A DNA stretch of 64,000 bases from Elusimicrobiota bacterium (lineage in GTDB: Bacteria; Elusimicrobiota; Elusimicrobia; UBA1565; UBA9628): positions 248,001 to 312,000 of the forward strand of contig JACRDN010000019.1 of the NCBI GenBank assembly GCA_016218575.1, read 5' to 3'. The notes under the pieces are model-generated. The model did not search any database and was not told the origin of the DNA. It saw only the letters and a program-made list of their open reading frames with translations. Shown piece by piece: positions 1 through 46,054 of the stretch (within the stretch, counting starts at the first letter, position 1; the number at the start of each line of letters is the position of its first letter). The position numbers were made by a program, and so were the translations under genes.

Positions 1-3000
1 AAGGACCAAAGCGGGCGCTCGCGCCAAATCCTCTCGGCTTTGCTGGGTCAAATCGAGGACAAGCAAAACGAGCTCTCCGAAGTCCTGGCCGACCCCGCGC
101 TCCAGGACGCTTTGCCCGCGGCCTTGGTCTCGCGCATCGAGAACCTGAGGCTCTCGCGCGGGATGTGGGCCATGCCGGGCGAGGGCAAGGACAAGGGCGC
201 GTCGGCCTTGGTGGTGCGCAAGTCCGAGTACTCGGCCTTTCTCGACGGGCTTCTCAAGATGATCCGCCCGCAGGGCGCCTCGCAGGATCTCTCGGCCATT
301 AAACAGGGCCTTTTGGGCAACCCGGCGGGGCTTTCGAGCTTCATCCCCCAGGCCCAGGTCCTGGACTTCGGGGACTCCGCGGACGGCTTCTATCTCGTCT
401 ACCAGACCCGCTTCTCCGTCCCCAACGGGCTCGAGACGGAAAGCTGGGTGACCTTGGGCAACATCGCCCGGGTCCTCGGCAACAACGTAAGCGTGGTGGG
501 CTGGCAGTTCGCCAGTCCCCCCAACGACCGCAACGCCCCCTACGGCGGCAAGGGCTTCGGCGTGCAGGTCGAGTCCATCCAGGGCCGGGACTGGGTCAAC
601 TACTTCATGATCACCTTGCACCGCTCGGTCTTGAACGTCCCCAAGGAGGCCACCTTCGCCTCGCAGAGCCAGGAGGTACGCGTCCAGGTGTTCGAGGACC
701 ACGCGCGCATGCTCCTGGGCGACACCCTCTACGTGGCCGCGGCGGGATACGCGGACTTCGCTTTGAACCACCCGGAGGAGCATCCTTATTATTACGGGGG
801 CAACTTCAAGACCTCGATCAAGTTCTTCCCGGTCATGAGGCTCAACTACGAGCACCAGGAGCTCTGGGCCAAGGACCCGCGCAAATTTGATCAGGAGGTG
901 AACCTTGACTTTGCCCACTACGACGAGTTCTTGAACAGGACCTTCCACATCCATGCCGAGGGCGCCAAGAAGCATTTCTCCCGCGACCAGCTGGGCCCGA
1001 GCTTCGACATAGGCTCTCTTCTCAACTCGGAGGACACGTTTACCTTGGACCTGTTCCTGGCCAGAAGCGGCGGCAGCGACGACATCACGCAGAGGTCCGC
1101 CGGGATCACCGTGCTCAAGGGATTTACCTTGCGCGACGACAAGGGCAAGCCCTGGATGCTCGTCAACAACGAGGCCACGGTCGAGCTCGGTGAGAAGTAC
1201 CCGACCTACGTGGACCGCCTGGCCGTCAATCTCCTCGACCAGGGCCTGGTCTTTAACGCGGAGGGCCGGCTCCTGGGCAAGGTCGGGGCCTACCATGTGG
1301 GCGTCTCCAAGACCCTCGACCAGGTGACGACCTTCAACGTGGGCTACGGCAATCCCTATCCCGGCGCCCCGCCCCGCGCCGAGGTCATGATCCGCACCTC
1401 CCAGGTCCTGGGCGAGCTCTGGGACAAGGTGACGGGCCAGGCCCGCCAGGACCTCCACGGGGGGGAGATCCTCAAGCCTTTCAACGACCGCTTGGACGAG
1501 TTCTACAAGGCCGAGGAAGGCGGCCCCTCGGCCCGCAAGGTGGCCGAGCTCAAGCGGCTCTTTGAAACTGACGTGGCCCGGCGCCTGATCAGCCAGGACA
1601 TGGGAATACTCGCCCGCGACATTCAAGCCCTGCGCAAGGCCGGGGCCATCCTCGACAACACCCGCATCGAAGGGATGGTGGGTTTCGTCTCCAAGCCAGT
1701 GGCCGACGGCCAGGCCGAGAAGGCCCTCACCGGAGGCCCGTCCCTGGGCACGCGCACCGAGCTCACCTTGAGCCGCGAGCAGAGGGGCCTTATCCAAGCC
1801 AAGGCTCAAAGCCTTTACCGCGAGGGCCTGCGCCTGCAGATGCGCCTTCTTGAGCTCGCCAAGGAGTGGCAGTCCACCGTGGTGGAGCTGGCCCAGGCCC
1901 AGTGGGAGCTCAAGCTCGCCAAGTACATGGCGGAGCGCGCCCCGAGCCCGGCCCTGCGCGCCGAGGGGGAGGTCAAGGCCGCCCAGGCCACCGCGCGCCT
2001 GCACCAGGCCCTCATACGCTACAACGTGCTTTCCGGCCGGCCTCCCACGGCCGAAAGCCCATTTAATAATTTAAACGCGCAAGATATAGAGGCGCTCCTC
2101 GCGGAAATAAGAAGCACCATCGCAGTTCCGGAACGTCTAAAGGAAATTCTGCTGTCTTTGAACCCCGAAGAGCTGGAGAAACGTCTAGGAACGAGCTCTT
2201 CCAATTTCTTGAACTGGATGACTTGGGTCGAGAAGCTTACTCTAGCCGTGGGGGTTCAGATTCAGGACCATTTGGCCGGCCAGCTCACCGGGGCGGGCCT
2301 CACTCTCAGCATCCCGGTCTGGGACCCCAACTCCAAGGCGGCGGATAAGGCCTTCGCTTTGGAGGGCCGGGCCGCGCTCGCGGAAATGAAGGAGGCCTAC
2401 CTTGGACAGCGCCTGGCCGCAGCGCAGAGCTTTCAAAGCGGCAAGATGTGGGACGCCGCGGCCGAGCAAATCGCCCCGCGCCTGCCCCAAGCGGCCTGGG
2501 ACCTAAGCCAGGCCATCCGGGGATACCGCAACGGGCTCGTCAGCGCCTCCGACCTCAAGAAGGCCTTCGACTCCTGGCAGTGGTACGCCGAGACCGCCTT
2601 GAAGGCCCGCAGCCAGGCCAGCCTTGCCCAGGCCTGGGCCGCGACCGAGCAGGGACTCCTGCGCGAGCCGGAGCAAGAGACCTCGGTTTTTCGATTGGAC
2701 TCCCTCGGCCAGGCTTTCGACGGGGCGGTCCGGCGCTCCTGGACCTTGGAGGAGGTGGGCCTGCGCCAGCTCGCCGCCAAGGCCATGGGCGAGGCCAACG
2801 CCTCCCGCATCCATAAAATCCTCCTCAACCTGAGCGTGGGCGCCAACCTCACCGCCTCGGGCGCGGGCTGGATCCCCCAGTTCGGGATCACCGGCATTCC
2901 CGTTTGGCCGATGCTCGGCTTCGAGTTCAAGCCAGAGGAGCTCAAGGATTTGCAGGTGGCCCAGGCCGAGGGCGAGGGGGAATACTACCAGGCCTTGAAG

Positions 3001-6000
3001 GCCAAGATCGAGGCGGGCCTGGCGGTCCAGCTTTACCAGAACATCGTGACCTTAAACAGTGCCGAGGCCGCCGCCCGCGAGCTCGAGAGCGGCCCCATGA
3101 CCGACCAAAACCGCCTCCAGGCGGGCGAGCTCCGGCTGGGGGCGCGCCAGGCCCTGGCCGCGATCAACTCGCTTTTGGGACGGCACCCGGAGGCGCCCCT
3201 GGAGGTTTCGCTTTCCTCCGAGCGGGCTTTGGAGGCCCTGCGCGGGATTCTCGCGGCCAAGGACCCCCAGGCCGCGGAGCGCAAAATACTCGAGGCCCGC
3301 CTCAAGGTGGCGAGAAAAGCCGAGGAGATCGCCGACAAGGGCCTCAAGATCGAGCAGTTGGCCTTGGAGCCGGTTTCCCTGGCCATGCGCTACCTGGGCC
3401 GCCTCGTCAACGCCCTGACCAGCCCCGAGGCCGCCGACCCGGATCTCGTGGCCGCGACCCGAGCCCAGACCTTGGGCGAGGAGCGCGCCTGGGAGGCCTT
3501 CCCGGAGATACTGGAGCAGCAACGGGCCAAGGCTCAAACCGCGCTGGCCTTGGTCCGCGCGGAGATCGCGCGCCTCCAAGGCGGCTCGGCGGCCGCGGGG
3601 CGCTCGCGCCTGGCCTGGCTCAAGGGGCAGGAGCTGGCTTTGAGGGGGGCTCTCCTCGTCCTCGGGGAGGAGCCCCGCCCGGCGGCCGCATCCCAGCCCC
3701 TTCCGGCGAGCTTCGAGAGCCTGAAAAGCCTCCTGATCGAGAAGGAGAGGCGGATTTCCGCGAGGGCCCCGCGCGAGCCCGCCTCCATCGCTTTGCCCGA
3801 CAAGGTGGAGCACCGGGCCGCGGGATTTCTGCGCTACTTCTACGCCTGGCAGAGCTTGGGCAAGGAGACAGTGGACAAGAGCTATATCGAAGGGTGGCTT
3901 GAGCTGAGGCTCAGAAGCCCCGAGACCCCGCCCGAGGCCCTGCTCCATTTGGCCAAGCTCCGCGAGGAGAAAATGGACCGGCTCTACCGCGAAAGCCTGG
4001 CCCAGGCGGCCTCCCGGGCCGAGATACTGACCGAGAATTTCGCGGCCGGCGTCAGGCTTTCGCGCATGGCCAAGGACCCCGAGGTCCTGCGCCGGATCGG
4101 GGAAAGGCTTTCCTCCCAGCGCGCCGAGATCGTGGCGTTGTTGGGTCTTGACCCGAGCACTCCCCTGGCGGCCCTGGCGGCCTTGGTCCCGGAGTCCGCG
4201 GACTTCGCGGCCGAGCTGGAGAGAACCCAGATCCCCCGCCTGCGCGCAAGCCTCTTCGAGGGCGGGCTCCCGGAGCCGGGCAAGGACGAGGACGGGCTCA
4301 TGTCCCAGATCCGGGCCGACGTGCTCGCCGAGCGCATGAGCTACAAGGGGGTCACCCCCGTGCTCGCCTTCGGCCTTTTCCGCGACAGGTTCATCTCCGG
4401 CGCCTTCCTGGAGGCCCCGGACCCGCGCGCCATCGAGAGGGAGCTCCGGAACATCATCTCGGAGGCCTTGAGAAAGGAGCTGGAGGCCACGGGCCGGATG
4501 CGCGAGCTGTCCTTGAGAATGCACTCCTTGATGAGCCGGGTGGAGGACGGGGCGCGCAAGGTAGAGGCCGAGCGCCTCCTCATCGAGGCTGCGGCCCGGG
4601 AGTACCGGGCCCTGACCGGACTTTCCTACTCTCCCGCGGATATGGGCGAGGCCGACGCCGCGCGCGAGCGCCTGGCCGCGGCCTGGCTGGCGTTCTCGGA
4701 TGGCGTGGCGGAGTTCAAGTCGAGCTTCATCGAGCTCGTGACCGAGCTCGAGGCTTTGGGGGCCGAGCCCTCGTCCCAACTGCGTCCCTTCTCGGCCCCC
4801 TTGGTCCGCGACGCGGCGGGCCTGCGCTCGGACCCCAAGGCCGAGCTCCTGAGCTATTGGGCCGAGCGCCTGGCAGACCCCGCCTTCGAGAAGGGTCAGG
4901 ACCTGGTTTTGGACGGGCTCGGCGGGCGGATTCCGACGGAGCTGCGGGCGCGCCTCTCGGAGCGGGCCCGGCTCCTGCGCGAGGCCTTGAGGGACGCCCA
5001 GGCCGTGAGGCTGCGCGATTTCACGCCGGCCGAGAGGCTCGAGCTCTTGAGCTTGAACGACGTCCAGGGCAAGCGCGAGGACTTGATGGCTGTCCTCTCC
5101 GAGGTCCTGGCCGCCTTGGGGGCCTTGGACGTAAAAGAGAACCCGGCCTGGGGCGGGCTCCTGAATTTCCTCAATAAGGACCTCGAGGCCTCCATTGCTC
5201 GCTCGGCCCAAGGCCGGGCGGATTACGTCGAGGCCGCAGCCGAGCTCCGCCAGGCTTATTGGCACGCGGTTCCCGCCCCGACCAAAGTGGAGGAGTCGTT
5301 CCAACGTTTGGAAGAGTTGAAAAGTCGTGTGGTAGAGCTTCGCCAAATTCTTCTTCAGAACTACTTACTGGACAGGCGAGAGGATCCGCGGTTTTTCCTC
5401 TTGAAGGACATGCAGCTCGACGCTTACCTCCGGGCCCAACAGGACTTCGACGCGGAGCTTGTGGCCGCGCTCGCGACAAGGCAGGTGAAGGAGAACCAAA
5501 GCCTGGCCCGGGGCTTGGACGGGCTCTACGACGTGGGGCGGGTCTTCGATCGCGCGATCGCCGCGCGCCGCTTCGGGCGCGGGATGCTCGCCTTGGACGC
5601 CCTCGTCATGCTGGAGGAGGCGAGGCTTGCCTCGGCGCGCTGGAGCGGGCGGGGTGCGGCTGAGATCTCCGCCATCGGAGAGGCTTTGGGCCGACTCAAG
5701 GAGACGCGGGAGCGTTGGCTCAAGGGCGGCTCGGATATGACCCCGCTCTACGCCGTGACCGGAGTCTCCAAGGACGGCAAGAGGCTGTGGACCATAGACG
5801 GCTGGCTTACCGCCGAGGAATTCGAGGCTAAGAAAAAATCTGGCGACATCCTCGAGGAAAGCGGGCGCTATTTTCTCCAGGCCGCCCCTGGCCGCGGGCG
5901 CTACGAGGTTCTTTCGGGAGCCGACCAAAACGATTTCCTGCGCGGCCGGGCCGAGGAGGGGCTGGCCGCGGCCCGGCAGTCCGCGGCCGTTCGGGAAAGG

Positions 6001-8274
6001 ATGAAGCGCCACGACTTCGCTCTCGACCGCCCCGCTCCCGATGGGAAGGAAGGCTACTCCGTGGCGGAGATATTCGGGACGGGGGGCAAGCACTCCCAGG
6101 GGCTCGTCCTTTTCTTCAGGGCCCCGGCCTCGGGCGACCGGCCGGGGAGCCTGCACGACGCCTTGCACCCCCTTGCGGCCTTGAGGGAGGCTCCAGAGAA
6201 GTATGTGATGTATCTGTACGCCGGCGGCGCAGCGCCTCCGCGCGGGAAATTCCCCACCCTCGAGAGTCTTAAGGGCTCTCCCGATTTTAAGAACTTTCGT
6301 CAACTGCTTCTCTCCGCCTCGGGAGCGACTGCCCTCAAGGCCGCCATCGAGAGCCGCCGCGACCTCGAGCTGCGCCGAGGCTACCTGGAGTTGAAGCTCG
6401 GCGGCTATGGATTCGCCCGCGACGCTCAGGGAAATATCGCGGATATGTACCTGGGGGAGGATGATTTCAAGGCCTTGCTCAAAGCCTTCGCCCACGCCGA
6501 GAGGGACTTGGAGAGGGCCAGGGAGGAACTTGCCAAGTCCCAGGCGCGAGAGAAGGAAGCGGAGGATGTCCTGAGGGCCCGGGATGAGGAGAACCGCAAG
6601 GCCGGGATAGACTACCAAGCGATGGCGGCTCTTTGGCGCGAGCGCCTGCGCCAGGAGGGCCTCCTTCAGTATCCCCAGAGGGAGGGGGAATCCGATGAAA
6701 AATACCAGGCCCGGATTTCCGCCGAGATCGAGAGGCGCCTCGTTAAGATCCCGGATTTCAAGAAGACCCAGGAGCTTTACGCTCCCTTCGCCAAGAGGTG
6801 GACCGAGGCCGCGGAAAAGCGGCGCTTCGCCGCGGCCCGGGCGGCCAACGCGGCCAAGGCCGTGAAAGGGGCCGAGGAGCTCTTGGAGCATTCCAAGAAT
6901 TGGAGCCTCTACGAGAGCCGCGACATGATCTTGGGCCTCGACCGGGAGGGCCGCCTCGTCTCGGTCAAGGCCGAGCCCGTCTACGGCCCCCAAAGGCTCG
7001 ATGCCTTCATCGGCGCGGGCGAGGTCGCCGTGAGCATCCAGGGCGAGGTCTGGGTGGCCTTCGCGGACGCCGAGGGGCGGGTCAAGCGCTATTACCAGGA
7101 CCGGGACCTGGCGGTCAAGGCCTTGGCGTCCTGCCGGATCAAATCCGTGACCATGGAGGCAGAGGACGCTCTCGCGGCCTCCGGCCGGAAGGCCAAGCCC
7201 TATTTCCGCATGAGCCATTACGAGGACCCCGAGAGCGGACTTTACGCCCTCATCAACGGCCGGTATCTGGCCGAGCGCGCTCGCGGCGCCAAATCGCAGA
7301 TCGGGAGCGCCCGCTCCTGGGGCGTCATGCCCTGGAATTGGGGCAACATCGCCCTCGAGATCCCGCGGGGCCTCGTCGGGACCTTGAAGGAGGTCCTGCT
7401 CGGGCAGGACATGCTGCAAGACGGCTACTTGGGGCGGATACAGGCCTACAAGACCGAGGGAGTCCTGACCGAGCGCCACGGGTTCTTCCGCCAAGTCCTC
7501 GGGGCGGTGGATCTCCTGAATCTCCTGCCCGATCCCGTGGGGAGGATTTACGACCCCAGCCAATTCCCGGCCGAAGTGGAACTCGACTCCCCGATAAGGC
7601 CCGGCCAGAACATCTCGGCCAAGGGCATGCATGACCCCAAGTCGAACAAGGACGTCAAGTACGGCGTCAAGTCCCTGCAGAGGCTCTGGGCCCAGAATCT
7701 TCAGGATGTGGCAGCCCTGCGCCTGCGGGTCTTGAGCCGCTTCCAAGGCGGCTGGGAGGAGGTGTCCATTCAAAAGGTGCGCGGCCGCGCCGGCTCCTAC
7801 GAGGAGTCCTCCCGGAGCGCGGGGCTCGGGGACAAATCCATGGAGAGAGAGCTTTCCGATCCCTTGATTTCTCAGGACCCCCGCTCGGACGGCACGGGGT
7901 CCGTGATTATCTCGGGCGATCCCGGGCACCTGGCCGTGGACCGAGTCCAGACCGAGGTCAAGATTCGCCCGGGCGCTACGCAGTACGAGACCCAGAGCCG
8001 GGCCTTGGACGGTTATGCCGAGAGGCTCGCGGCCCTCCCCCAGGCGGATGAACGCGCACCCGCCGAGGAGAAGGGCCGCCAGGAGCGGGCTCTGGCGCGG
8101 GAGGACGGCAGGCGCGGGACCTTGAGTCGGGCCGCGGACGCGCTCACGGCTCGGGCCCACCGGATCGCGGCGCGGCTGGCAGCGCAAAAAGCCCTGCGCC
8201 GGCATGTCGAGCGCCTGCGCCGTGAGATCGAGGCGGCGCGCCGAAAAATGGGCCTTTTGGCCCCGCAAAAATAG
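1..8274 (+). CDS. Giant exported multidomain protein with repeated TolC-like helical units (5' end outside window)
   Basis: The frame is open from the first base, so at least 2,757 residues are visible and the true start and any signal peptide lie upstream. The first ~480 visible residues are beta-rich and aromatic-rich without a family I can name. From about base 1760 the protein becomes helical and Ala/Leu/Glu-rich. Three or four segments look like TolC/outer-membrane-efflux helical hairpins: 1760-2500, 2790-3560, about 3830-4340 and 4340-5300. Each has the pattern of a glycine-rich beta stretch (for example GLTLSIPVWD, GITGIPVW) followed by long helices rich in Q/A/L. The part after 5700 is mixed, and basic coiled-coil helices end the protein. 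It is probably an envelope or surface protein; exact function is unknown. Long antisense frames reflect codon bias. Confidence 0.75.
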   Translation, partial: KDQSGRSRQILSALLGQIEDKQNELSEVLADPALQDALPAALVSRIENLRLSRGMWAMPGEGKDKGASALVVRKSEYSAFLDGLLKMIRPQGASQDLSAIKQGLLGNPAGLSSFIPQAQVLDFGDSADGFYLVYQTRFSVPNGLETESWVTLGNIARVLGNNVSVVGWQFASPPNDRNAPYGGKGFGVQVESIQGRDWVNYFMITLHRSVLNVPKEATFASQSQEVRVQVFEDHARMLLGDTLYVAAAGYADFALNHPEEHPYYYGGNFKTSIKFFPVMRLNYEHQELWAKDPRKFDQEVNLDFAHYDEFLNRTFHIHAEGAKKHFSRDQLGPSFDIGSLLNSEDTFTLDLFLARSGGSDDITQRSAGITVLKGFTLRDDKGKPWMLVNNEATVELGEKYPTYVDRLAVNLLDQGLVFNAEGRLLGKVGAYHVGVSKTLDQVTTFNVGYGNPYPGAPPRAEVMIRTSQVLGELWDKVTGQARQDLHGGEILKPFNDRLDEFYKAEEGGPSARKVAELKRLFETDVARRLISQDMGILARDIQALRKAGAILDNTRIEGMVGFVSKPVADGQAEKALTGGPSLGTRTELTLSREQRGLIQAKAQSLYREGLRLQMRLLELAKEWQSTVVELAQAQWELKLAKYMAERAPSPALRAEGEVKAAQATARLHQALIRYNVLSGRPPTAESPFNNLNAQDIEALLAEIRSTIAVPERLKEILLSLNPEELEKRLGTSSSNFLNWMTWVEKLTLAVGVQIQDHLAGQLTGAGLTLSIPVWDPNSKAADKAFALEGRAALAEMKEAYLGQRLAAAQSFQSGKMWDAAAEQIAPRLPQAAWDLSQAIRGYRNGLVSASDLKKAFDSWQWYAETALKARSQASLAQAWAATEQGLLREPEQETSVFRLDSLGQAFDGAVRRSWTLEEVGLRQLAAKAMGEANASRIHKILLNLSVGANLTASGAGWIPQFGITGIPVWPMLGFEFKPEELKDLQVAQAEGEGEYYQALKAKIEAGLAVQLYQNIVTLNSAEAAARELESGPMTDQNRLQAGELRLGARQALAAINSLLGRHPEAPLEVSLSSERALEALRGILAAKDPQAAERKILEARLKVARKAEEIADKGLKIEQLALEPVSLAMRYLGRLVNALTSPEAADPDLVAATRAQTLGEERAWEAFPEILEQQRAKAQTALALVRAEIARLQGGSAAAGRSRLAWLKGQELALRGALLVLGEEPRPAAASQPLPASFESLKSLLIEKERRISARAPREPASIALPDKVEHRAAGFLRYFYAWQSLGKETVDKSYIEGWLELRLRSPETPPEALLHLAKLREEKMDRLYRESLAQAASRAEILTENFAAGVRLSRMAKDPEVLRRIGERLSSQRAEIVALLGLDPSTPLAALAALVPESADFAAELERTQIPRLRASLFEGGLPEPGKDEDGLMSQIRADVLAERMSYKGVTPVLAFGLFRDRFISGAFLEAPDPRAIERELRNIISEALRKELEATGRMRELSLRMHSLMSRVEDGARKVEAERLLIEAAAREYRALTGLSYSPADMGEADAARERLAAAWLAFSDGVAEFKSSFIELVTELEALGAEPSSQLRPFSAPLVRDAAGLRSDPKAELLSYWAERLADPAFEKGQDLVLDGLGGRIPTELRARLSERARLLREALRDAQAVRLRDFTPAERLELLSLNDVQGKREDLMAVLSEVLAALGALDVKENPAWGGLLNFLNKDLEASIARSAQGRADYVEAAAELRQAYWHAVPAPTKVEESFQRLEELKSRVVELRQILLQNYLLDRREDPRFFLLKDMQLDAYLRAQQDFDAELVAALATRQVKENQSLARGLDGLYDVGRVFDRAIAARRFGRGMLALDALVMLEEARLASARWSGRGAAEISAIGEALGRLKETRERWLKGGSDMTPLYAVTGVSKDGKRLWTIDGWLTAEEFEAKKKSGDILEESGRYFLQAAPGRGRYEVLSGADQNDFLRGRAEEGLAAARQSAAVRERMKRHDFALDRPAPDGKEGYSVAEIFGTGGKHSQGLVLFFRAPASGDRPGSLHDALHPLAALREAPEKYVMYLYAGGAAPPRGKFPTLESLKGSPDFKNFRQLLLSASGATALKAAIESRRDLELRRGYLELKLGGYGFARDAQGNIADMYLGEDDFKALLKAFAHAERDLERAREELAKSQAREKEAEDVLRARDEENRKAGIDYQAMAALWRERLRQEGLLQYPQREGESDEKYQARISAEIERRLVKIPDFKKTQELYAPFAKRWTEAAEKRRFAAARAANAAKAVKGAEELLEHSKNWSLYESRDMILGLDREGRLVSVKAEPVYGPQRLDAFIGAGEVAVSIQGEVWVAFADAEGRVKRYYQDRDLAVKALASCRIKSVTMEAEDALAASGRKAKPYFRMSHYEDPESGLYALINGRYLAERARGAKSQIGSARSWGVMPWNWGNIALEIPRGLVGTLKEVLLGQDMLQDGYLGRIQAYKTEGVLTERHGFFRQVLGAVDLLNLLPDPVGRIYDPSQFPAEVELDSPIRPGQNISAKGMHDPKSNKDVKYGVKSLQRLWAQNLQDVAALRLRVLSRFQGGWEEVSIQKVRGRAGSYEESSRSAGLGDKSMERELSDPLISQDPRSDGTGSVIISGDPGHLAVDRVQTEVKIRPGATQYETQSRALDGYAERLAALPQADERAPAEEKGRQERALAREDGRRGTLSRAADALTARAHRIAARLAAQKALRRHVERLRREIEAARRKMGLLAPQK

Positions 8275-8321: not shown

Positions 8322-9521
8322 ATGAAGCTCGCGGCCGCTCTCATTTTTTTGGCGCTTCCTCTTAGAGCCGGGCCGATCGTCGGCGCGCGGCGCGGCGGCG
8401 CCCTCCCCCAGGCCGGGGTCGGTGTCCTCCCTGCCCGCGGAATTCCCGGCGTAGGCGGGTTCGACCTGAGAGCGCCGGCTCAAGCAGGCACCGTCCGTTC
8501 GCAGGCGCCTGGCTTTGCGCCCGGTCAAGCCGCCGGCGGATCTCTCGTTTCGGGCCGCGAGCTGCGACTCGAGGACATGGTCCTGCCGCGGTCCGCCATT
8601 CAAGGCGCGGCCGATGTTCCGGCCTCCGCCTCGCGATTCTCGTCCGCTCGATGGGACGCGGGTTGGCGCGCGCTTCGGCGGGAGAGCCGGTCCGCCCCGC
8701 CATCCCCGGCCGGGCGCAGCGCGGACCCTGTCGCCGGGGCCGGTTTCGCGCCCGAGCTTGAGTCGAGTTGGGCCTTGGAGTCCGGGCGTTGGGACGAGGC
8801 CTCCGAGCCCGGTCGGGAAGTCGGTCTTGGCGAGATTGCGTCCGTTCTCGGGGGTTTTACTCCATCGCGCGGTATCGGAGCGCATGGCGGGGCATTCGGA
8901 GCCGCCCGAGCCGAGGCCCGGAGGCCGCGGGCGCGGCCTGTCCAGCAAGAATTGTCCTTGGCGATGGCCGCTCCGAACGCCGACGGCCTGTCCGGCCGAG
9001 CTCCCGAAGTCTCACGGGCGCGGGCTTCCGAGGGGCCTGGGGCTTTGAACGATTTTCCGGGCCCGGTGGCACGGCTGGCCATCACCACGGTGGGCAATGG
9101 GCTTGGATTTGCCATCGCCGAGGTCCCGGCGCGTCGGCTGGCCCAAGCCGGCTTGGCGGCAAGCAGCGAAGATCTAAGCGCGGCCGTGAACGCGGCCGCG
9201 CTCGAGGTTGTCTCCGTTGTCTCCGCGAGATCGGCGCCTGCCGTCCCCCTCCTCGAAGCCCGCGGCCAGCCGGCTGAAGCCGAGGCGTTTTCATCCGCGG
9301 CTGGCGCAAGGAACGGCCCTACGGCTTCCTCCGCCGCGCGCGAGGGCCGCGCGTCTAATAATATCCTGCGCCGGATCGTGGCGGCCCTGAGATTCTCTGC
9401 CGAGCCCGCGCGGGCGTACGAGGGGGCCTCTCCCCTCTCGCCGCCTGCTATCCCCTTGGCCTTCGCCTTCTTCTGGACTTTTTTCCTGGGCGCCGCCGCG
9501 CTCGCCTTGGATCGGCGTTAG
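8322..9521 (+). CDS. Exported Ala/Arg-rich protein with C-terminal membrane anchor, unknown function
   Basis: 399 residues. The N-terminus (MKLAAALIFLALPLRAG) is a clear signal peptide. The bulk is low-complexity Ala/Gly/Arg/Pro-rich sequence with no domain I recognise. The last ~30 residues are a Pro-containing stretch (SPPAIP), one hydrophobic helix and a terminal DRR. That arrangement resembles C-terminal sorting signals of the PEP-CTERM/GlyGly-CTERM type, but the residues match no named class. The gene follows the giant protein by 47 bases with its own -10 element, so it may be transcribed separately. The long alternative frames here are GC-bias artefacts; the signal peptide and start geometry support this one. 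Confidence 0.6.
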   Translation: MKLAAALIFLALPLRAGPIVGARRGGALPQAGVGVLPARGIPGVGGFDLRAPAQAGTVRSQAPGFAPGQAAGGSLVSGRELRLEDMVLPRSAIQGAADVPASASRFSSARWDAGWRALRRESRSAPPSPAGRSADPVAGAGFAPELESSWALESGRWDEASEPGREVGLGEIASVLGGFTPSRGIGAHGGAFGAARAEARRPRARPVQQELSLAMAAPNADGLSGRAPEVSRARASEGPGALNDFPGPVARLAITTVGNGLGFAIAEVPARRLAQAGLAASSEDLSAAVNAAALEVVSVVSARSAPAVPLLEARGQPAEAEAFSSAAGARNGPTASSAAREGRASNNILRRIVAALRFSAEPARAYEGASPLSPPAIPLAFAFFWTFFLGAAALALDRR

Positions 9522-43219: not shown

Positions 43220-46054
43220 ATGAGCGTCGCTTCCTGGCTGCTGACGCTCCTGGCCTGGAACGTCGTCTCTGCCCAGGAGTTCGGACAGAACCAGGTGATC
43301 CGGCGGGACTTCGATTGGAAGGTCCGCTCGAGCCCCCACTTCGATCTGTACTACTACGATGAAGGGGCGGGGCTCGTGGTCGAGGCCGCCGGAATCCTTG
43401 AAGCGTCGTTCGAGCGCCTGACGCGGGAGCTCAGGATTTTGCCCAACGGCCCATCCTGGCTCCCGGAGCGCCTTAAAAAAAAGCGGAAATGGAGGCGGCG
43501 CCCCTTCTTCCTTTACGCCAGCCCCAACGACTTTCAGCAATCCGCCATCGCCGAGGCCGGAGACGGCACCGGGGGCATCACCGAGCCATTCAAGGACCGC
43601 TTCATGGTCTACAACGACGGCTCGCGCCAGTGGCTCTGCGAGGTGTCCGCTCACGAGCTCGTCCACATCCTGCAGTTCGAGGTGCTCATGAGCGGGTTTT
43701 GGAAAACCGGGAAAATACTGAAGTCGTTTCTCTATCCCCTTTGGATGATGGAGGGCATGCCCGGGTTCTTGACCCGCGACATCGAATCCGCCCTCGAGGA
43801 GACCGTGATCCGCGACGCGGCGACCTCGGGCGGGCTCATCCCCTTGACCCATCTCGAGCATTTCGGGCATTTAAAACCCCATCAGATCGTCCTGGCCTAC
43901 CGGGAGGGTGCCCAGGCCATGGAGTTCCTGGCCGAGCAATACGGCTCCCGCAAGCCCGGCGACATGCTGAGAATTTTCGAGAGCCGCTTCGAGACCTCCC
44001 AGGTCCTACAGGAGCTCGTGGGTCTCAACGCCCGCAAGTTCAGCGCCAAGTTCCTCGAGTACGTGGAGAATAAGTACAAGCGCGTCGCGCGGGCGCAAGG
44101 CCTGCGCGAGCCGGAGACCTTCGGTTCGCCGCTCACGGCTTCGAAAGGCCGCATCCCCGAGTTCAACAGTGGCCCGGCCTTGAGCCCGGACTTAAAGACC
44201 GCGTACTACGCCACGACCGCGGACGGGCACCCTCCCGAGATCCGCGCCCTCGATCTGGGTACGGGGCGCTCGCGCAAAATCCTGGGCTATCGGCCCTCCC
44301 GGATCGAAAACCTCCCCCTCGGCCGCTTCGCCAATATCTCCCGGGTCTTGGCGGTTTCACCGAACGGGCGGAGGCTGGCGTTTTCCGCCACGAAAAACCA
44401 CAGGGACGCGCTCTATATTTACGATATTGCGTCCAAGCGCCTGGAACGCAGGGAGCTTCCCGGCTTCTCGGCTCTGAACCAGCCGGCGTTCTCGCCCGAC
44501 TCGAAATTCCTGGCCTTCTCGGCCATGGAAAACGCGGGCACCGATCTTTACCTTTACGAGCTCGCCTCCGGCCGCCTGCGGCGGCTGACCGATGACTCCG
44601 AGGACGACGACATGCCGGCCTTCACCCCGGACGGCGCGGCGCTCATCTACTCCAAGGAGATCGGCCCGGGGCGGCGGCTCTACCGCCTGAGCCTGGCCGA
44701 TTCGCGGCAGACCCGCCTCGAGAATTCTGGCGGCGAAGCCCGAGATCCCGTGGTGTCGCCGGACGGCAAGAGGGCGCTTTTCATCTTGGAGGGGTCCGAC
44801 TCATCGGAGATCGCCGAGCTGGACCTGGAAACAGGGAAAGTCTCCAGGCTCACCAAGAGCCTGGGGGCCTGCTACACCCCGAGCTACGCGGGACGGGGCG
44901 AGATCGTATTCGCCGCCCTGCGCCGGGGGAGCGTCCACTTGTACAAAGGACCGCGTTCCAAGTTCCTAGACGAGGCAGTGCCTCAGGAGCTTGCGGGGGA
45001 TGCCTTTGAGCCCGCAAGGAGCTCGGCCGCTTTGTCCGGAGAGCGCCCGTACCAATTCTCCTACTCCACCGACCTTTTCATCCCCGCCCTCTTCTATTCC
45101 TCGGAGGGAGGGCTGTTCATGGCCGGCTATTGGCAGGGCTCGGACCTTCTAGGGCGCCACCAGAACCAGGCCCTCTTCAATTACCACTCCGCCAAGAGCT
45201 ACTCCTACCAAACGAGCTACCTGTACCGGCGCTGGCGGCCGCAGCTCTTCGCCGGGGTGACGGGGTTCAGCCAGGAGGACCTGATCGACGCGGACTTGCA
45301 CCGCGTGGACGACGTCGCGCATTCCCAATTCGCCGGGGTGCGCTACCCCTTCGACCGCTTCCACCGCGTGGACGCCTTCCTGCAGTCGGCCAGCGAGCAG
45401 GTCGTGGACCGCGCCGACAGGACCCAAGAGGACCGCCAGGCCAGGCTCTACGGCCTGTCCTTGACCCGGGATACGGTGCGAGGCCGGTATCTCGTGCCCA
45501 ACCAGGGCAGCCGCTTGGAGTTCTCCTATTCCCGGGCCGTGGCCGCGGCGGGGGGAAACCGGAGCTATTACGTCGCGGGGGCCGAAGGGCACAAGTTCGT
45601 GGCCACCGGAAGCCAGAGCGCGCTTTCGTTTCGCGCGGCCGCGGCCCGGGCCCTGGGGCCGGACCGGCCCCAGCTTCTTCTGGGAGGGCTCGGGGGCGTG
45701 CGCGGCTACGCCCGGGCCTCGAAGCGGGACCTGGGCGGCCATTTGGGGCTTCTCAACGCGGAGTGGCGCTTTCCCCTGATTCGGGACCTCAACTACTATA
45801 TGTGGTACATCTTCCCCGATTTCTACTTCAAGGCGGTATTTGGTACGATTTTCGCCGATGCGGGTTATGCCTGGGATTCCGAGGGTCAATTGTCGCGCAG
45901 CCGCTGGCGGGACCTGCGCCAATCCGTGGGCCTCGGGATCCGGATACACACCTTCATCCTTCAGCAATTTCCCTTCGTGATTTCCATGGACTACGCCCGC
46001 CGCACCACGCAGAACGGCGGGATTTTCTACGTCTACCTGGGGCAGGTATTCTGA
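43220..46054 (+). CDS. Outer-membrane barrel fused to a metalloprotease-like domain and a PD40 beta-propeller
   Basis: 944 residues. Signal peptide MSVASWLLTLLAWNVVSAQE. Residues ~25-300 form a peptidase-MA-like (gluzincin) domain with HELVH at 145-149 and a candidate third zinc ligand, Glu178, in MMEGMPGF. Residues ~310-600 are a TolB/PD40 propeller (repeats such as AFSPDSKFLAFSA, FTPDGAALIYSK, VSPDGKRALFI). The last ~300 residues are a BamA/D15-like beta-barrel (GGLGGVRGYARASKRDLGGHLGLLNAEWRFPL is the typical VRGY region; C-terminal YVYLGQVF). So a surface- or periplasm-facing protease appears to be anchored by its own barrel. Stop overlaps the lysA start (TGATG). Confidence 0.85.
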   Translation: MSVASWLLTLLAWNVVSAQEFGQNQVIRRDFDWKVRSSPHFDLYYYDEGAGLVVEAAGILEASFERLTRELRILPNGPSWLPERLKKKRKWRRRPFFLYASPNDFQQSAIAEAGDGTGGITEPFKDRFMVYNDGSRQWLCEVSAHELVHILQFEVLMSGFWKTGKILKSFLYPLWMMEGMPGFLTRDIESALEETVIRDAATSGGLIPLTHLEHFGHLKPHQIVLAYREGAQAMEFLAEQYGSRKPGDMLRIFESRFETSQVLQELVGLNARKFSAKFLEYVENKYKRVARAQGLREPETFGSPLTASKGRIPEFNSGPALSPDLKTAYYATTADGHPPEIRALDLGTGRSRKILGYRPSRIENLPLGRFANISRVLAVSPNGRRLAFSATKNHRDALYIYDIASKRLERRELPGFSALNQPAFSPDSKFLAFSAMENAGTDLYLYELASGRLRRLTDDSEDDDMPAFTPDGAALIYSKEIGPGRRLYRLSLADSRQTRLENSGGEARDPVVSPDGKRALFILEGSDSSEIAELDLETGKVSRLTKSLGACYTPSYAGRGEIVFAALRRGSVHLYKGPRSKFLDEAVPQELAGDAFEPARSSAALSGERPYQFSYSTDLFIPALFYSSEGGLFMAGYWQGSDLLGRHQNQALFNYHSAKSYSYQTSYLYRRWRPQLFAGVTGFSQEDLIDADLHRVDDVAHSQFAGVRYPFDRFHRVDAFLQSASEQVVDRADRTQEDRQARLYGLSLTRDTVRGRYLVPNQGSRLEFSYSRAVAAAGGNRSYYVAGAEGHKFVATGSQSALSFRAAAARALGPDRPQLLLGGLGGVRGYARASKRDLGGHLGLLNAEWRFPLIRDLNYYMWYIFPDFYFKAVFGTIFADAGYAWDSEGQLSRSRWRDLRQSVGLGIRIHTFILQQFPFVISMDYARRTTQNGGIFYVYLGQVF

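Follow-up and report, generated by a model that had tools for sequence, protein, structure and literature searches.

A giant Elusimicrobiota protein with six tandem TolC-related units: a possible single-chain channel

The giant gene and its surroundings

The window (the whole 64,000-nucleotide stretch analysed, C19:248001-312000) opens inside a giant gene. Frame +1 is open over 2,757 codons, in agreement with the initial annotation, which had noted more than 2,700 visible residues, and the gene continues upstream. What the window holds is the C-terminal two thirds of an open reading frame (ORF) that runs from ATG to stop at C19:243786-256274 and encodes 4,162 amino acids, its true start lying 4,215 bases before the window. 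We number residues along the 4,162-aa protein, such that window base = 3 x (aa - 1406) + 1; the features are collected in the table. The N-terminus, judged by eye, resembles a Sec-type signal peptide, and most of the helical region that follows it (aa ~36-1535) is upstream of the window. The frame is not a product of chance in GC-rich DNA: it is open in relatives that are 38-49% identical over the full 2.7 kaa, and close pairs give dN/dS values of 0.03-0.16 in each region tested, which is purifying selection. The lowest values fall in the beta-rich domain and unit 1, and those of units 4-6 tend to be higher. The long antisense ORFs over the gene appear to follow mechanically from the GC-rich composition of the coding DNA.

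Homologues with an open frame were found in 50 of 97 related Elusimicrobiota genomes, the identities given above being those of the best, and complete homologue ORFs span 3.6-5.6 kaa. Scanning 84,980 species, each represented by one genome, yielded 43 loci, all in records labelled Elusimicrobia, Elusimicrobiota or plain 'bacterium'; since two short peptide patterns served as the query, relatives that lack these patterns are not found. In an even draw across the phylum the core was present in 38 of 295 genomes, nearly all from one order. Several genomes (G011, G028, G030, G033, G044, G046, G047 and others) encode on another contig a second, more diverged paralogue of 3.3-4.4 kaa, at 36-41% identity. 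A diverged sister clade (class family f5; L124, 3,794 aa) is about 25% identical and retains all six units in unchanged order; in profile comparisons every unit matches its counterpart at 99.7-100%.

Upstream of the giant lies a second giant gene (L012:13170 to L009:6513; C19:235170-242513), whose 2,447-aa product has a signal-peptide-like N-terminus and, by eye, a Walker-A-like AHTGAGKS, and has no match in Pfam, NCBIfam or PDB. Its motifs seemed SecA-like by eye, but this kinship was not confirmed, hhalign giving only 0.1-0.2% against the SecA of the source genome. Relatives of the second giant occur in 15 genomes, 15/15 of which also carry the TolC-related giant, and the two genes are adjacent on the same strand, the second giant just upstream, in at least seven (G000, G001, G002, G003, G005, G011, G050). 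Directly upstream of the window's giant is a Y1/IS200-like transposase gene (L009:6709-7626; C19:242709-243626), with a weak, below-cut-off DnaA-C-like match. Transposase-related ORFs lie at the equivalent position in 12 of 30 giant loci, a constancy that is unusual for a mobile gene.

Downstream, window 8322-9521 (+) encodes a 399-aa protein without a family match that has a signal-peptide-like start and ends in a hydrophobic helix and DRR; in several other loci, too, the giant is followed by an unmatched ORF of similar size. Further along, at window 43220-46054 (+), a 944-aa protein fuses PD40 (WD40-like beta-propeller) repeats to an Omp85-superfamily barrel domain. Among the neighbours of the giant that we examined, we identified neither a transporter nor an adaptor gene. 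Four TolC genes of ordinary length (445-577 aa) coexist with the giant in the source genome (G000 contigs C5, C14, C19:448989-450113 and C23).

Table. Features of the giant gene within the window, with residue numbers of the 4,162-aa protein.
Feature	Residues (aa)	Window position	Strand	Details	Basis
Giant gene, part in window	1406-4162	1-8274	+		ORF, homologues, dN/dS
End of long N-terminal region (aa ~36-1535)	1406-1535	1-390	+	by eye mostly helical	sequence; control segments without TolC match
Outer-membrane beta-barrel-like domain (tentative)	1536-1874	391-1407	+	~20 consecutive antiparallel strands	AlphaFold; Foldseek
Unit 1, TolC half-1 type	1940-2095	1603-2070	+	strand hairpin 1959-1996, long helix 1998-2051, helix 2055-2083	model; TolC columns 143-211 (43%)
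Unit 2, TolC half-2 type	2096-2300	2071-2685	+	strands 2150-2179 (LTLAVGVQI..LTLSIPVW), 66-residue helix 2183-2248, turn YRNGLVSASDLKKAF	model; columns 284-399 (81%); L110 OEP
Unit 3, TolC half-1 type	2301-2475	2686-3210	+	strands 2342-2381, helix 2384-2435, SLLGRHP end	model; columns 9-213 (94%); sister-family OEP
Unit 4, expected half-2 position	2476-2640	3211-3705	+	helix pair kept, hairpin reduced to one short strand (E624-628 of the model)	model; no sequence match; kept in sister family (99.7%)
Unit 5, expected half-1 position	2641-2795	3706-4170	+	strands 2679-2686, 2699-2706; helices 2716-2761, 2765-2786; LLGLDPSTPL end	model; undetectable by sequence
Unit 6, TolC half-2 type	2796-3000	4171-4785	+	strands 2857-2864, 2869-2876; helices 2904-2945, 2950-2990	model; columns 330-404 (42%); L089 OEP
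C-terminal region, no recognised fold	3040-4162	4903-8271	+	conserved PRG...LGR..YKTEG...HGFFR...DLLPDP..DPSQFP block; no C-terminal TM helix, unlike most homologues	

Six repeated units and their kinship with TolC

Whole-protein searches of Pfam, NCBIfam and PDB sequences with the window's giant gave no match, and Pfam OEP had no direct match on it; alignments were therefore needed. Using hhalign, we compared a giant-family profile (50 non-redundant sequences) with one built from 38 ordinary TolCs of the same class. Units 1 and 2 together (P1) matched TolC with a global probability of 96.8% (E 3.5e-10, 331/410 columns), units 3 and 4 with 95.4%, the signal coming from unit 3, and units 5 and 6 with 30%, the signal coming from unit 6, and reversed-profile controls of the paired blocks gave 0-4% globally and at most 9% locally. 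When single units were aligned, units 1 and 3 found the first half of TolC and units 2 and 6 the second, at the columns and probabilities listed in the table; the match of unit 3 was nearly full length (93.9%, E 1.5e-7), its second-best alignment being to half 2 (85%), and for units 4 and 5 no match to TolC could be detected by this comparison. The order read from the profiles is half 1, half 2, half 1, two unassigned units and half 2. In addition, units 1 and 3 match each other at 92%, and in the sister clade both match TolC half 1 nearly full length (unit 1 at 76%, columns 6-210; unit 3 at 83%). The other helical segments of the giant had no TolC match, the best of these controls reaching 18%, so a general coiled-coil effect does not explain the resemblance.

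The alignments place strands on strands, QLTGAGLTLSIPVWDP lying over the TolC segment SLGLSLSIPLFSG (consensus), and the unit 2 turn YRNGLVSASDLKKAF (YRNGL..DL) aligns with the TolC turn YREGLGDQLELKDAE. Five of 34 homologues matched Pfam OEP at E <= 1, the lowest E being 4.7e-6; the match is weak in unit 2 of L110 and reaches 21.2 bits (E 2.8e-4) in unit 6 of L089, and a member of the sister family exceeds the curated cut-off in unit 3, with 30.3 bits. A plain HMM of the class TolCs gave weak matches only, almost all of them falling in units 2, 3 and 6, and a profile of the TolC region found nothing beyond chance matches among PDB sequences. TolC homology of the giant is well supported; it is strong for units 1-3 and moderate for unit 6.

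Structure prediction is consistent with this. An AlphaFold2 model of aa 1900-3060, built on 34 sequences (pTM 0.69, mean pLDDT 69), divides residues ~1940-3000 into six consecutive units, each a strand hairpin, a long helix and a further helix, in line with the repeated glycine-strand/long-helix segments that had been noticed by the initial annotation. The modelled long helices measure 54, 66, 52, 46, 46 and 42 residues in units 1 to 6; those of OprM have 67 (PMC8277102). Units 1, 2, 3, 5 and 6 are complete in the model, and unit 4 has a single 5-residue strand and no hairpin; that units 4 and 5 share the topology of the others is a prediction only. The strands are mostly amphipathic. In Foldseek searches against the PDB, ranks 1-34 were all channels of the outer membrane factor (OMF) family (TolC, ST50, OprM, SilC, CusC, OprN, VceC), followed by CmeC, with E from 5.8e-6, a probability of 1.00 and 11-16% identity; TM-scores against single TolC chains were 0.31-0.58, normalised by target. 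That tandem TolC-like units follow one another here had been the central proposal of the initial annotation, which had named profile-profile search and structure prediction of the segments as the way to check it, and both came out positive for TolC.

The beta-rich domain and the ends of the protein

The initial annotation had also described a beta-rich N-terminal half and a coiled-coil end. A beta-rich part does exist, yet it comprises only ~340 residues ahead of the units, and the final ~1,100 residues are of mixed character, containing helical stretches, rather than plain coiled coil. We modelled the beta domain separately (aa 1480-1990, 40 sequences, pTM 0.51), obtaining pLDDT values of 70-93 across much of the core. 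Its leading Foldseek matches were LptD, siderophore receptors (PirA), ZnuD, BtuB and OmpG, with low TM-scores (~0.2-0.5); no sequence family and no Pfam family, PF04453 included, matched it. Residue alternation is strong in many, not all, of its strands. On the model, then, the domain resembles an outer-membrane barrel, an assignment that remains tentative because of the low TM-scores, the lack of a sequence family and the strands that are not clearly amphipathic.

Since LptD headed the Foldseek list and PF04453 seemed to be absent from giant-bearing genomes, we considered whether the giant replaces LptD. An LptD query found LptD in 90 of 97 genomes, the source genome included; a separate LptD in nearly all genomes means that the giant does not replace it. 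LpxC is likewise encoded in nearly all related genomes, and the presence of both LptD and LpxC indicates an outer membrane of the LPS type.

The C-terminal region matched no family or structure. Signal peptides are seen in many nearly complete homologues. In about 27 homologues, the stretch from the signal peptide to the helical region contains one to four hydrophobic segments, and 21 homologues (13 by a hydropathy threshold and 8 by eye) have a hydrophobic helix at the C-terminal end, with arginines or lysines after it and often a proline-rich stretch before it. The window's giant has neither the N-terminal segments nor the C-terminal helix, and a frameshifted helix was ruled out, as no frame past the stop encodes one. 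Located after the signal peptide and before the helical region, in the N-terminal 1.5 kaa of L084 (5,612 aa), L095, L097 and in other homologues, is a conserved module that is hydrophobic, has several TM-like segments and contains repeated domains of ~100 residues; it has no confident Pfam match and is absent from the window's giant. Hydrophobic segments near both ends suggest that most homologues may bridge both membranes. Conceivably, these would be one polypeptide across the whole envelope, with the N-terminal segments and C-terminal helix in the inner membrane and the beta-barrel and a complete single-chain TolC tunnel in the outer, together a one-protein trans-envelope export conduit, an idea that we regard as speculative and rather unlikely.

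A proposed single-chain channel, its alternatives and known systems

Our data establish six repeats, with TolC ancestry strongly supported for units 1-3 and moderately for unit 6, in a conserved gene that is under purifying selection and that encodes, as judged by eye, an export-type N-terminus. The OMF protomer consists of two repeats, so that a trimer draws 12 strands and 12 helices from six of them (PMC8277102); six units in one chain are therefore the content of one whole OMF trimer. The initial annotation had left open a single-chain channel, a decoy channel or a long periplasmic spacer. Exactly six half-repeats make the single-chain channel the best of these three, nothing was found for the decoy, and a spacer or tether is still possible. 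We consider it reasonably probable, with considerable room for doubt, that the giant is a secreted outer-membrane protein whose middle forms a fused pseudo-trimeric TolC-type channel; that the channel is closed within a single chain is the best inference and is unproven.

In this proposed mechanism, the giant would be exported by Sec and then inserted into the outer membrane. Three ancestral TolC protomers, each of half 1 and half 2, would lie in tandem within the chain, and their six half-repeats would fold side by side around one tunnel as a covalent pseudo-trimer, a single chain supplying twelve equivalents of the long helices for the periplasmic alpha-barrel and, for the membrane barrel, ten to eleven of its twelve strands. 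The tips of the helical hairpins would point toward the inner membrane, the ~20-strand domain before the units could anchor the chain in the outer membrane, and the N-terminal helical and C-terminal regions may extend into the periplasm, where channels of TolC-type pumps meet their inner-membrane partner. In the model, the helix count fits a 12-helix periplasmic barrel, with ten clear strands and one short one. Tunnel closure, like outer-membrane location, export function, conductance and cargo, is an inference. The main weak point is unit 4: without its hairpin the strand number would drop to 10-11, unless the barrel closes differently, and a canonical 12-strand barrel is not assured. Also against a channel are the failure to detect units 4 and 5 by sequence, a model resting on 34 sequences with a mean pLDDT of only 69, the modest TM-scores against single TolC chains (0.31-0.58), the lack of a Pfam match in the giant itself, the absence of an adjacent transporter or adaptor and the presence of ordinary TolCs in the genome.

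The main rival is that the TolC-derived repeats have no open pore and serve as a structural spacer or tether, a long, rigid periplasmic scaffold that would connect the outer membrane with either peptidoglycan or the inner membrane. The loss of strands in unit 4, the short strands of units 5 and 6, the shortening of the helices along the chain (from 66 to 42 residues) and the tendency of units 4-6 to evolve faster than units 1-3 all speak for such a scaffold, as do the huge flanking regions and the hydrophobic segments near both ends of homologues. However, hairpins are kept in five of six units, most strands are amphipathic and the units are retained in the sister family; the turn and strand motifs of the channel persist in units 1-3, and the unit number is constant at six, which a spacer does not require. 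We therefore hold a pore-less scaffold to be unlikely, though a serious contender. Alternatively, the giant could be one subunit of a larger oligomer such as a dimer or trimer, with only units 1-2 or 1-3 building a shared channel and the rest as decoration. Normal OMFs are indeed trimers (PMC8277102), and most of the detectable TolC signal is in units 1-3, but the same topology runs through all six units under purifying selection, and a trimer of the giant would contain 18 half-units, so that this arrangement seems quite improbable. Convergence of plain coiled coil and amphipathic strands, for which one could cite the helix-rich composition of the giant and its empty Pfam search, is hardly credible and already contradicted by the failure of its other helical parts and of reversed profiles to match TolC, by the OEP matches of homologues, one above the curated cut-off, and by a Foldseek top made up of OMFs only.

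If the fused channel is correct, this natural fusion of six half-repeats would be the first single-chain member of the TolC type within the literature that we searched: no single-chain or tandem TolC was found in open-access papers, subscription papers and bioRxiv preprints being outside that scope. Threefold symmetry would then be broken and the units could diverge independently, as has happened in units 4-6, offering a natural system for asking whether symmetry matters for opening and partner binding. OMFs are homotrimers of ~430-470 aa. The giant is like the OMF family (PF02321 OEP; TolC, OprM, CusC, VceC) in its half-repeat of hairpin, long helix and shorter helices, in its turn and strand motifs and in the alternation of half 1 and half 2. 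Unlike the ~450-aa protomer of an OMF, it fuses six halves in one 4,162-aa chain (4-5.6 kaa across the family), one half has no hairpin, and a separate ~20-strand domain precedes the channel units. Since the homotrimer feature is not met, the giant is not an ordinary OMF member, despite kinship in profile and fold. With large outer-membrane beta-barrels (LptD, TonB-dependent receptors, OmpG) it shares ~20 antiparallel modelled strands, many of them amphipathic, whereas its barrel-like domain lies mid-chain and not at the C-terminus, belongs to no sequence family and has low TM-scores. Elusimicrobiota and Omnitrophota are known for huge uncharacterised proteins, the phylum being rich in proteins of >5,000 aa without assigned function (PMC11573180); such proteins also figure in the West-Roberts preprint cited in PMC12057145. 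A fused channel would give one uncharacterised Elusimicrobiota giant a concrete role, and this protein differs from the others in that a concrete channel-type fold and domain order can be assigned to it.
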